DNA of 35,033 bases from an uncultured Thermoguttaceae bacterium (GTDB lineage Bacteria > Planctomycetota > Planctomycetia > Pirellulales > Thermoguttaceae): the NCBI GenBank assembly GCA_937951625.1, contig CALFBP010000003.1:1-35033 (forward strand), in the 5' to 3' direction. The position numbers and the translations under genes are program-made. The notes under the pieces were generated by a model that worked only from the letters and a program-made list of their open reading frames with translations, did not search any database and was not told the DNA's origin. This document shows, piece by piece, positions 4,525-8,120 of the stretch. Positions within the stretch are counted from its first letter, which is position 1. Each line of letters begins with the position of its first letter.

Positions 4525-4674
4525 GGAGTCGCTCCTTCCAACTCAAATCGCCCGACGCAGGCAATCTCCTCAACCATCGTCGGCAAGTCCGGGCCTAGGG
4601 GTGAGACTTTACGAAACGGTCGTTCCAGGCGCAACAATCGTAATCGTCACTCCGGAAGGAAGGCCAAATCCGCC

Positions 4675-4703
4675 TTCGACAAGCCCTTCGCATTTGATAT
4701 AAT
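4675..4703 (+). promoter_or_regulatory. Sigma70-like promoter of top6B-top6A
   Basis: TTCGAC (4675-4680), a 17-base spacer and a perfect TATAAT (4698-4703) lie about 110 bases before the top6B start. They are in the gap shared with the divergent secreted-protein gene. The spacing and the -10 box are textbook; the -35 box matches TTGACA at four of six bases. Transcription would begin near 4710, leaving a leader of about 100 bases. Confidence 0.65.
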
Positions 4704-4741
4704 CCAAGCAGTTTTCCACGAAACCGCAAACGTTAGCGACT

Positions 4742-4758
4742 GCTAGGGAAATCCTAGC
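4742..4758 (+). promoter_or_regulatory. Leader inverted repeat upstream of top6B
   Basis: GCTAGG (4742-4747), loop GAAAT, CCTAGC (4753-4758) form a perfect 6-base stem, about 35 bases after the inferred transcription start and 54 bases before the start codon. It could be an RNA hairpin or an operator. There is no T tract, so it is not an ordinary terminator. Confidence 0.4.
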
Positions 4759-4812
4759 GGCCTGGTCGGCGCAAAAGCGACGCTCCAATGATGAAAATGC
4801 GGAGTTGGACGA

Positions 4813-6906
4813 TTGGAGAAGATAGCTAGGGAACGGATCGCTTCGGCTGGGGAAGACCAGCCCACGGATGGCGTTGAAACCAGACCTTTGGGTGAAAGCA
4901 ATGGCGAGGCTTCGGGCAACGGTCAAATTAGGGGAGATTTCGCCCCTCGACGTCGTGCCACCGCCCAGTCCATGGCGGCAAGCCAACGCGACATTTCGGT
5001 CAGCGAGTTTTTCGCCAAAAATCGCCACCTGCTCGGCTTCGACAACCCTCGTAAAGCTTTGCTGACGACCGTTAAGGAGGCGGTTGATAACGCCCTCGAC
5101 GCCTGCGAGGAGGCCGGCATCCTGCCCGAGGTGTGGATTCGCATTACTCCCACGGGCGAGAACCGGTTTCGGGTAGACGTTCAAGACAACGGGCCGGGCA
5201 TCCTCAAAAAGCAAATCCCGCTGATCTTCGGCAAGCTCCTTTACGGATCGAAGTTTCACCGTCTTCGCATGAGCCGGGGCCAGCAAGGCATCGGCATCAG
5301 CGCCGCCGGCATGTACGGCCTGTTGACCACCGGTAAGCCCGTTCGCATCCTTTCCAAAATTTCGCGGACGAAGCCAGGGCACTATTACGCGATTCAGATC
5401 GACACGAAGCGGAACGAACCGGAAATCCTCAATGGCCGCGGGGAGGGCGATGAGATTCCCGTCGGCGAACGGGGCCGCCAAGCGATCGAAAAGCTGGGCA
5501 TCGATTGGGTGGACGTGGACCATGGGACGTTGGTGACCATCGAGCTGGAGGCCCGCTACCAGCGTGGGCGGGGCAGCGTGGATGAATATCTCGAGCAGAC
5601 CGCGCTGGCCAATCCGCACGTGACCCTCCATTATGTCGATCCCGAGGGCAAAGCCACCACCTACGCCCGCGTAACCGAGACCTTGCCTCCGGAACCGAAG
5701 GAAATCAAGCCGCATCCCTACGGGGTGGAATTGGGTCGCCTGGTTTCGATGTTAAAGGAGACCAAGGCGACTACCATGATGCAATTCCTTACCAGCTCCT
5801 TTTCGCGCGTTAGCGGCAATGTCGCCCGGCGAATCTGCGATGCCGCCAAGGTTAGTCCCCGCGCTAGTCCGCGAAAAATCGGGCGGCATGAGGCCGATGA
5901 GCTGTACAAAGCCATTCAAACGACGAAGATTCCCGCCCCAGCCACGGATTGCATCTCGCCCATTGGCGAGGACTTGTTGCTCCGCGGTTTACACAAGCTA
6001 GTGCCGGGCGAGTTCTACGCTGCCGCCACGCGGCCGCCAGCCGTGTACCGTGGCAACCCGTTCGTGATCGAAGTGGGCCTGGCCTACGGCGGCGGGCCTG
6101 CCACGCACCGCGTCAGTCGGGAAACGCTCGTTGAACTCATCAGCCAAACCGACGCCCGCACTTTGCGCCAATTCCTTACCAGCACCTTTGACGGGGTGGG
6201 GGTGCAAGCGGCCGACAAGATCCTTCACGAGGCAGGGCTACGCCGCCGCACTGCCCCGGCGAAGCTCAAAGATGCCGAAATCACCCGCCTTCACGAGGCC
6301 ATGCAGAACGTCAACCTGAGCGACGGCCAGACCATGACCGTGCTCCGCTACGCCAACCGGGTACCCCTGCTGTTCCAGGCCGGGGCCTGCGCGATCACGC
6401 AGACCGTAATGGCGACCAACTGGCGGTCCTACGGCCTCACCCAGTCCCGAGGCAGCCTCCCCACCGGCCCGGTGACGATCATGGTCCACATGGCCAGCGT
6501 CTGGGTCCCTTTCACCAGCGAATCCAAGGAGGCCATCGCCAGCTATCCCGAGATTCAGAAAGAGCTTCGTCTGGCCTTGCAGGCCGTAGGCCGCAAGCTG
6601 GGCATGTATTTGCGGCGTCGCATCCGCGTGAAGCACGAGGGAGAACGGCGGAACCTGTTTCTCCGCTACCTCGGTGAGGTGGCCACGGCGGTGAGCGAGA
6701 TCAATCAGACCGATCGTGAAGAACTGTACCAGCGGTTGCTGAAGGTGGCCAAACGCAAGACGCGTCAGGCCGATTTGCAGTTCGACGACCGCGGTCGCCC
6801 AATCGAGCAAGACGCGGACGACTTCGGCGGCGGGGTGCTGATCGTCGGCGACGACGGGGCCCCTCGCGCCGCCGAAACCGGCGTGGCCGCCGAAACCCCG
6901 AAGTGA
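4813..6906 (+). CDS. top6B: DNA topoisomerase VI subunit B, with an apparent extra H2TH module
   Basis: The product has 697 residues. It is the ATPase/transducer half of the type IIB topoisomerase that passes one duplex through another as an A2B2 complex. The GHKL ATPase is at about 60-290: N-box VKEAVDNALDA with E89 and N93, DNGPGI at 125-130, and SRGQQGIGIS at 154-163. A first H2TH follows at about 308-372 (MQFLTSSFSRVSGNVARR). The transducer starts at about 385. A second H2TH-like segment (about 436-505, RQFLTSTFDGVGVQAADKI) interrupts it before LRYANRVPLLF. The switch-loop lysine is in SKEAIAS (K572). The tail after about 650 is acidic and glycine-rich. An in-frame TGA at 4792-4794 limits the start. 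TTG at 4813 with GGAG 8 bases upstream is chosen; ATG at 4972, just before the conserved fold, has no SD. top6A follows after 68 bases. Confidence 0.94.
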   Translation: MEKIARERIASAGEDQPTDGVETRPLGESNGEASGNGQIRGDFAPRRRATAQSMAASQRDISVSEFFAKNRHLLGFDNPRKALLTTVKEAVDNALDACEEAGILPEVWIRITPTGENRFRVDVQDNGPGILKKQIPLIFGKLLYGSKFHRLRMSRGQQGIGISAAGMYGLLTTGKPVRILSKISRTKPGHYYAIQIDTKRNEPEILNGRGEGDEIPVGERGRQAIEKLGIDWVDVDHGTLVTIELEARYQRGRGSVDEYLEQTALANPHVTLHYVDPEGKATTYARVTETLPPEPKEIKPHPYGVELGRLVSMLKETKATTMMQFLTSSFSRVSGNVARRICDAAKVSPRASPRKIGRHEADELYKAIQTTKIPAPATDCISPIGEDLLLRGLHKLVPGEFYAAATRPPAVYRGNPFVIEVGLAYGGGPATHRVSRETLVELISQTDARTLRQFLTSTFDGVGVQAADKILHEAGLRRRTAPAKLKDAEITRLHEAMQNVNLSDGQTMTVLRYANRVPLLFQAGACAITQTVMATNWRSYGLTQSRGSLPTGPVTIMVHMASVWVPFTSESKEAIASYPEIQKELRLALQAVGRKLGMYLRRRIRVKHEGERRNLFLRYLGEVATAVSEINQTDREELYQRLLKVAKRKTRQADLQFDDRGRPIEQDADDFGGGVLIVGDDGAPRAAETGVAAETPK

Positions 6907-6974: not shown

Positions 6975-8120
6975 ATGGCAAAAAAGACAACAAATCAGGA
7001 TCAAGCGGCCGCCGCGCCGAACCTCAATCCACGCGACCAGCACACCCTCGAGCAACTCGTGGCCCTGGCCGACGCCGTGGTGCGGTCCGCCCAATCGGGC
7101 GTCGATCCCACGTTGAAGATTCCCACGCGAACCCTGTCCAATGTCCGCTACAACCGGACCAAGCGGATCATCGAGATGGGCAGCGCGCGGAGCGACCGGC
7201 AGCTCTTCAATCTGAACCAAGCCAAGAGCTACATGCAGACCCTGCTGGTCGCCAGCGGGGCCAAGAAGCTCATCGCCCAAGGCAAGACCACGAGCCTGCG
7301 GGGTATGTTCTATCTCTCGAAGCACACCATCGAGGGGACCCGCGAAGAAACCTTCGACGACCAGAGTGAATCGGACGGGATCATCGAGGACCTCGAGGTC
7401 GCCATCAACGTGCTCCGCGAGGAACTCCATCTTTATGCCAAGAACGCCGGAGCGATGGTGGGCGAGATCACCCTCATCGACAGCGGCGACACCATCGATT
7501 GCACGCGGATGGGCTCCGGCGGCTACAGCATCCCCTCGATCGTCGAGCCTGAGGTCGTTCAGTTCGCCGAGTGCAACGCCAAGTTCGTGCTGCACGTGGA
7601 AAAAGACACGGTCTGGCGACGCTTCAACGAAGACAAGTTCTGGAAGACGCACCAGTGCATCCTCACGCACGGCGGCGGCCAGCCTCCCCGCGGCGTTCGC
7701 CGCTTACTCTACCGCCTTCACCATGAGTTGAAGTTGCCGGTCTATTGCCTCCTGGACAACGACCCGTGGGGATACTACATCTATAGCGTCATCAAGCAGG
7801 GATCGATCAACCTCGCCTATGAATCCAAACGCATGGCCATTCCCGAGGCCCGTTTCCTCGGCCTGCGGTCCAAGGATTTCGTCGAGTGCGGCCTGTCGAA
7901 CAGCGTCAAGATCCAGCTCAATGAGACCGACCGCAAACGGGCCAAACAGATCGCCAAGTATCCTTGGTTCGCCCACAAGAAAGCGTGGCAAAAAGAAATC
8001 GAGCAACTGCTAGAGAACGGGTTCAAGCTCGAGGTCGAGGCCCTCATCAGCAAGGACATCAGCTACGTGACGGAGGAATACACCCCCACGCGGCTGGAAA
8101 ACGAAGACTGGCTGGATTGA
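6975..8120 (+). CDS. top6A: DNA topoisomerase VI subunit A (Spo11-like)
   Basis: The product has 381 residues, close to the usual subunit A length. It cuts and rejoins DNA through a tyrosine in a winged-helix (5Y-CAP) domain. The segment SLRGMFYLSKH puts the likely catalytic tyrosine at Y113. The Toprim domain is at about 203-380, with the glutamate in HVEKDTVWRRF (E209) and the metal-binding acidic pair in LLDNDPWGYY (D261, D263). THGGGQPPRGVRRLL (231-245) is another conserved Spo11/TopVI-A segment. The gene follows top6B by 68 bases in the same direction, so the two subunits are made together. The SD before the ATG at 6975 is weak (GGTAGGG about 20 bases away). The related eukaryotic Spo11 makes meiotic breaks, but paired with a full B subunit this is a topoisomerase. 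Confidence 0.95.
   Translation: MAKKTTNQDQAAAAPNLNPRDQHTLEQLVALADAVVRSAQSGVDPTLKIPTRTLSNVRYNRTKRIIEMGSARSDRQLFNLNQAKSYMQTLLVASGAKKLIAQGKTTSLRGMFYLSKHTIEGTREETFDDQSESDGIIEDLEVAINVLREELHLYAKNAGAMVGEITLIDSGDTIDCTRMGSGGYSIPSIVEPEVVQFAECNAKFVLHVEKDTVWRRFNEDKFWKTHQCILTHGGGQPPRGVRRLLYRLHHELKLPVYCLLDNDPWGYYIYSVIKQGSINLAYESKRMAIPEARFLGLRSKDFVECGLSNSVKIQLNETDRKRAKQIAKYPWFAHKKAWQKEIEQLLENGFKLEVEALISKDISYVTEEYTPTRLENEDWLD

Follow-up and report, generated by a model that had tools for sequence, protein, structure and literature searches.

The topoisomerase VI subunit B (Top6B) encoded in the window, the 35,033-nucleotide stretch of DNA analysed here, appears to hold a second H2TH domain inside its transducer, and we put at about 0.95 the probability that this insert is an H2TH domain copied within the Top6B family. 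The gene lies on the forward strand at 4813..6906 (697 aa from the listed TTG, a putative start) and is followed downstream by that of its partner, subunit A (Top6A; 6975..8120, forward strand, 381 aa). Judged by their sequences, the two products are clear family members and make up a type IIB topoisomerase VI pair. Top6B scores over the curated cut-offs of NF003218 (694.8 bits, cut-off 274) and TIGR01052 (513.1 bits, cut-off 380.7), and its model of residues 50-660 shares 41% identity with M. mazei 9o0g_B in Foldseek; Top6A scores over the cut-offs of PF21180, PF04406 and PF20768, as well as that of NF003333 (555.2 bits). A 368-aa open frame also runs antisense to the start of Top6B (4609-5715, reverse strand), and is probably a by-product of the Top6B coding composition.

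Layout of Top6B and identity of the insert

Profiles, structure alignment and the model agree on the order of a GHKL ATPase domain, a canonical H2TH and the transducer. The canonical domain (H2TH-1; 5713..5937, forward strand, residues ~301-375) can be aligned along its length with the Top6B of both M. mazei and S. shibatae. The remaining parts follow on the same strand. The first part of the transducer (5989..6096, residues ~393-428) ends in GLAYGGG, this end being matched by positions 31-54 of the Pfam profile Topo-VIb_trans. It is followed by the insert (H2TH-2; 6097..6333, residues ~429-507) and then by the second part of the transducer (6334..6642, residues ~508-610), which starts with MTVLRYANRVPLLF, is matched by profile positions 56-157 on residues 504-610 and holds the switch lysine in its SESKEA motif, by alignment to M. 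mazei K435. Last comes the C-terminal part of the Top6B stalk region (6643..6795, residues ~611-661), where the model has a long helix at 579-631 and then another at 635-659.

Since the Topo-VIb_trans profile breaks off at position 54 and resumes at 56, the extra segment is an insertion inside the transducer, placed at the hairpin turn between GLAYGG and LRYANRVPLLF. The solved structures interrupt at the same point: 2q2e (M. mazei) aligns to Top6B residues 50-428 and resumes at 502, while 2zbk (S. shibatae) aligns to residues 60-428 and resumes at 505, leaving ~73 Top6B residues that have no counterpart in either, both having a short turn there. The original prediction had put a second H2TH inside the transducer just before LRYANRVPLLF, and the split profile and the broken alignments locate it exactly there; the coordinates it gave, 6118-6327, cover the core of the insert but fall short of the whole, which spans ~6097-6333.

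The two segments quoted in that prediction as bearing the same H2TH pattern are indeed found at residues 323-341 and 452-470. Aligned ungapped, residues 305-375 and 434-504 have 23/71 identical positions and 36/71 positive ones (identities included), with a BLOSUM62 score of 93, as compared with a mean of -49 (sd 16, maximum 39; z 8.9) when the second copy (434-504) was shuffled 20,000 times. This is also the top internal diagonal: the strongest 71-residue ungapped repeat anywhere in Top6B shares this offset of 129, starting at 300 and scoring 98, and the next diagonal scores 31. NF003218 matches all 25 of the inserts scanned, and in the window copy the part of the model that aligns is its H2TH section, positions 240-310 (49.1 bits, E 3.1e-13). 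When a profile of the insert was compared with solved structures, the best matches were the H2TH stretches of Top6B (S. shibatae, 2.8e-8; M. mazei, 1.5e-4), with weaker ones to the nucleic-acid binders ribosomal S13, Fpg and XPF. The insert is thus nearer in sequence to the Top6B H2TH than to other H2TH families, in the structure-profile, NCBIfam and Pfam searches alike.

Structure prediction points the same way, and the insert is predicted to have the H2TH fold. In an AlphaFold model of Top6B residues 50-660 (71 sequences, mean pLDDT 86.4), the helices of H2TH-2 (436-445, 451-458, 464-474 and 487-499) match those of H2TH-1 (307-316, 322-329, 335-345 and 358-370) in number, order and approximate length. 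The insert modelled alone (25 sequences, pLDDT 78.5) superposes on the H2TH domains of Top6B and MutM: Foldseek places it on M. mazei 9o0g_B at 0.8 Å over 70 columns, and VIA-align on residues 232-311 of 9o0g_B with Z 14.3 (1.4 Å, 80 residues), the MutM domains coming next after Top6B with Z up to 11.4. Because VIA-align scores of Z < ~13 can be common for helical bundles, the argument is carried by the Top6B rows at the head of the list in combination with the sequence match. A chance or generic helical match is ruled out by the diagonal test, the shuffles and the fold superposition. An intein or frameshift artefact is unsupported, with no stop inside the insert among the order-search matches listed.

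Distribution and origin of the copy

The second H2TH is not general in planctomycetes; it is kept in one order. A scan of named genomes gave 80 Top6B loci, of which the 24 best (L039-L062) hold the whole insert and the 25th (L063, Pirellulales) reaches the insert end only. The window insert and these 24 align ungapped over 85 columns, with constant length in all 25. By label, 21 of the 24 loci are planctomycete (many Pirellulales or Thermoguttaceae) and three are other, one Chthonomonadales (L039) and two Acidobacteria (L056, L062); these three point either to misbinning of their contigs or to transfer from this order into other lineages. Both H2TH rows of L039 are nearly identical to those of a Rhodopirellula-labelled locus, which suggests that its label reflects mislabelling or misbinning.

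Within the window genome's order, which the labels of the named loci lead us to infer is Pirellulales, the insert profile matches 179/196 sampled genomes, and in 176 the match is strong (E 4.7e-32 or better). Of the 20 without a strong match, a search at E 1e-9 found no Top6B in 17, and in the other three (G394, G414, G549) Top6B runs off the contig at the insert, so that no readable Top6B lacking the insert was seen among the 196. Twelve of the 17 genomes without Top6B at this threshold belong to one family (f2), and most of the 17 are listed as at least 90% complete; the genomes without it include G493, G497, G501, G517, G540 and G564, suggesting a lineage-specific loss.

Across the phylum sample, Top6B matches over the cut-off occur in 189/392 genomes. 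The insert profile is strongly matched (E 2e-37 or better) in just 11/392, all in the window's order, with none among the 380 sampled phylum genomes outside it, which rules out a feature of all planctomycetes. Weak matches (E 5.4e-14 to 8.9e-9) occur in a further 48/392, and 333/392 have no match at 1e-8. The canonical H2TH-1 reaches this weak level too, matching the insert profile at 3.7e-12 in the window, and in one genome (G207) the weak match was read and confirmed as the canonical domain.

The hairpin was also compared across an alignment, A1, of the window and 70 of the 80 loci, the 10 incomplete loci being left out. The insert occupies this region in 22 rows, 24-32 residues do so in 26 and 3 residues in 23. 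All 19 archaeal rows, drawn from DPANN-type archaea and Methanosarcinaceae only, have the 3-residue form, and TACK archaea were represented in our comparisons by S. shibatae alone. As the original prediction supposed for archaeal Top6B, the second copy is absent from M. mazei, S. shibatae and 19/19 archaeal rows of A1, which rules out that every archaeal Top6B has it. Woesearchaeota and Nanoarchaeota loci gave long tblastn spans, but these are rejected as inserts, the hairpin being short wherever the pattern located one, and probably come from the canonical H2TH.

The 26 intermediate rows, which belong to Elusimicrobia and to Planctomycetota of other lineages, carry low-complexity linkers of 24-32 residues with a net charge between -8 and 0 (L064-L080, L084-L086, L098, L101, L107, L112, L114 and L117 in A1; also L149, L150 and L152). 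As these linkers in other lineages lie at the same transducer hairpin, the turn is a recurrent insertion site. Three further genomes whose Top6B profile is split, two of a different planctomycete family, f50 (G171, G056), and G207, likewise have low-complexity linkers there (46, 44 and 41 residues) and not the insert; the net charge between the two strand motifs is -14 and -10 in the f50 genomes and -1 in G207.

The H2TH trees were built on 71 columns only. In the careful one, of Top6B rows only and including an S. shibatae row that was trimmed by hand and is very long (branch 7.61), all 22 H2TH-2 rows fall into a single clade (100/100) with a long stem, and this clade joins the H2TH-1 of the same order (96/98). 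AU tests on the quick tree found two constrained topologies better than the free tree, one with the H2TH-1 of the order as a single clade (p 0.899) and one with all bacterial H2TH-1 as a single clade and H2TH-2 outside it (p 0.882). The AU tests do not separate an origin within the same order from one outside the bacterial H2TH-1 rows. We conclude that H2TH-2 had one origin, from within the Top6B family.

It is very improbable that the domain was instead borrowed from another H2TH protein, such as Fpg/MutM, RqcH/NFACT or S13. Pfam NFACT_N does match all 25 inserts (best E 3.9e-7), and the MutM superposition noted above, with Z up to 11.4, would also fit such a source; yet the window copy scores 49.1 bits with the Top6B profile as against 26.1 bits with NFACT_N (profiles from different libraries), Top6B heads all three structure searches, and H2TH-2 joins the same-order H2TH-1 at 96/98 in the tree, which was built without non-Top6B rows.

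Conserved residues and possible roles of H2TH-2

In M. mazei, the accessible text of two papers describes the H2TH as touching DNA through R263, K268 and K308 (PMC13040014, PMC5922973). By alignment, the equivalents are T327, R332 and K372 in H2TH-1, and T456, G461 and N501 in H2TH-2. None of the three positions is basic in any of the 22 insert rows: the first is I, L, A, T, M, V or S, the second is G in all 22, and the third is N in 21 and S in one. The first position is seldom basic in canonical domains either (R/K in 2/22 H2TH-1 of the same proteins, R in 2/49 other A1 rows); therefore it is positions 268 and 308 that carry the point, and at 268 four of the 22 H2TH-1 have C. Net charge in these 22 proteins ranges from -5 to +3 for H2TH-2 and from +1 to +9 for H2TH-1. 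Over the same rows H2TH-2 has a mean pairwise identity of 55%, the lowest value among the six regions measured, as compared with 59% for the stalk, 61% for H2TH-1, 78% for GHKL and 82-85% for the transducer.

Individual residues are kept more strictly. The sample comprised the window, L039-L062 and L119-L148, with 46/55 sources parsed (39 distinct sequences); L119-L148 are the 30 best-scoring order-search loci, a biased draw in which L124 is the window itself. In this sample L439, R449, F454, F459, G461, R479 and P482 are invariant (46/46), position 452 is R or K in 46/46, and G463 is G in 43/46, while the non-basic D447, Q453, N501, G505, Q506 and M508 are conserved in 42 to 45 of 46. The equivalents of 449 and 479 are often basic in canonical H2TH domains also, and the two arginines may be partly inherited. 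H2TH and HhH motifs that grip the phosphates of DNA or RNA typically have a GxG turn, and the weak matches by profile to S13, Fpg and XPF are in keeping with this.

The window genome is 97.9% complete and has one GyrA/ParC-family gene (L159:1327-4074; G000, contig C10), no second gene of this type having been found in it. In its 915-residue product the heptad QHRGGKG occurs twice, at residues 582 and 829; as this resembles the GyrA box, we read the single protein as GyrA. From this GyrA/ParC search only, we infer that topo IV is absent from the window genome, in agreement with the available text of PMC11302465, where topo VI-bearing bacteria outside Pseudomonadota and Terrabacteria are described as without topo IV.

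We expect the enzyme to work as an ordinary topoisomerase VI, by ATP-gated strand passage, and, as only one GyrA/ParC-type gene was found, it probably serves the cell as its dedicated decatenase. In this reading the gate segment, which is bent, would still be touched from outside by H2TH-1, and H2TH-2 would sit on the transducer's cavity side. There the GxG turn and invariant arginines of H2TH-2 would make contact with the transported segment, or with the DNA crossing, and so help to link the capture of a second duplex with closure of the transducer and cleavage at the DNA gate. The cavity-facing placement comes from the description of another species' Top6B, that of Pirellula staleyi, in which a "unique alpha-helical bundle" protrudes into the central cavity according to the text available (Allen and Maxwell 2024, PMC11302465). 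The storage cavity is the holding place of the transported segment (PMC5922973), and its T-segment-binding residues are given a role in crossover recognition and cleavage control in the accessible parts of PMC5922973 and PMC13040014. It is because the P. staleyi bundle protrudes into the cavity and the storage cavity holds the transported segment that a putative contact with the transported segment or crossing is our favoured reading, held tentatively and at a little under even odds. The original prediction had suggested more broadly that the element might contact DNA or a partner and alter the clamp, which is plausible.

The conserved R449 and R479, the basic position 452, G461/G463 and the matches to nucleic-acid binders all speak for a T-segment contact. 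Against it, the M. mazei R263, K268 and K308 are not kept, the charge is near neutral, the identity is the lowest of the six regions, and it is the gate segment and not the transported one that the canonical H2TH of Top6B binds, as far as described in PMC13040014. Almost as likely, though likewise short of even odds, H2TH-2 may be a protein-protein module that makes no DNA contact and sets the tightness of the clamp, serving as a brace between the two transducers, or between them and the GHKL domain or Top6A. The missing DNA-contact residues and near-neutral charge fit such a module equally, as do the conserved non-basic residues listed above (D447, Q453, N501, G505, Q506, M508), and the available text of PMC13040014 has inter-transducer status in M. 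mazei coupled, at least partly, to cleavage competency; it accounts less well for three conserved basic positions (449, 452, 479) beside a GxG turn, and for nearest non-Top6B relatives (Fpg/MutM, S13, RqcH) that bind nucleic acids.

A copied H2TH might also have landed in an insertion-tolerant hairpin as a neutral passenger with no new job. The site is permissive, with 24-32-residue linkers in 26/49 rows lacking the insert, and H2TH-2 is the least conserved of six regions (55%); but its length is constant across the 25 aligned inserts, it is present in 176/196 genomes of the order with no readable Top6B lacking it, specific residues are strictly conserved, and its identity is not far under that of H2TH-1 (61%) and the stalk (59%), so that we regard this explanation as improbable. 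Returning to the favoured contact with the transported segment, a bolder extension, which we consider rather unlikely, is that the order rebuilt the strand-passage cavity by moving a copy of the gate-binding H2TH onto the transducer, where a dedicated domain would hold the transported duplex. If this is true, the topo VI of the order would be a variant that prefers another crossing angle or differs in its decatenation preference, sitting in cells that appear to be without topo IV.

Comparison with known systems

In the literature searched, a second H2TH in Top6B is not named in titles or abstract openings; the phrase "two H2TH" was counted twice for PMC5922973 and was not found in the accessible portion of its main text. 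The bundle itself has already been noticed: in the available text of PMC11302465, a transducer alpha-helical bundle is said to occur only in the Top6B models of P. staleyi and of a dinoflagellate, Cladocopium goreaui. What is new relative to that text is its identity as a conserved, single-origin H2TH duplication, so that a "unique helical bundle" reported without an identity now gets one. An H2TH domain can, it appears, be duplicated within a topoisomerase, and the result is a natural variant with an extra folded transducer domain, order-wide, in which one compact domain offers a direct handle for removal or mutation.

Archaeal Top6B (M. mazei, 2q2e and 9o0g; S. shibatae, 2zbk) has the same order of GHKL, H2TH, transducer and stalk, from which the window Top6B differs by the ~73 extra residues that form a second H2TH inside the transducer. 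The H2TH domains of Fpg/MutM, ribosomal S13 and RqcH/NFACT share the fold of the insert (MutM with Z up to 11.4), but match it more weakly in sequence than Top6B does. A further parallel lies in the Top6B of P. staleyi and C. goreaui, known here by the description in PMC11302465, which likewise have a transducer helical bundle; the available text does not term it an H2TH or a duplication, nor survey the order. Since P. staleyi belongs to the order where the insert is the rule, its bundle is very probably the same insert.
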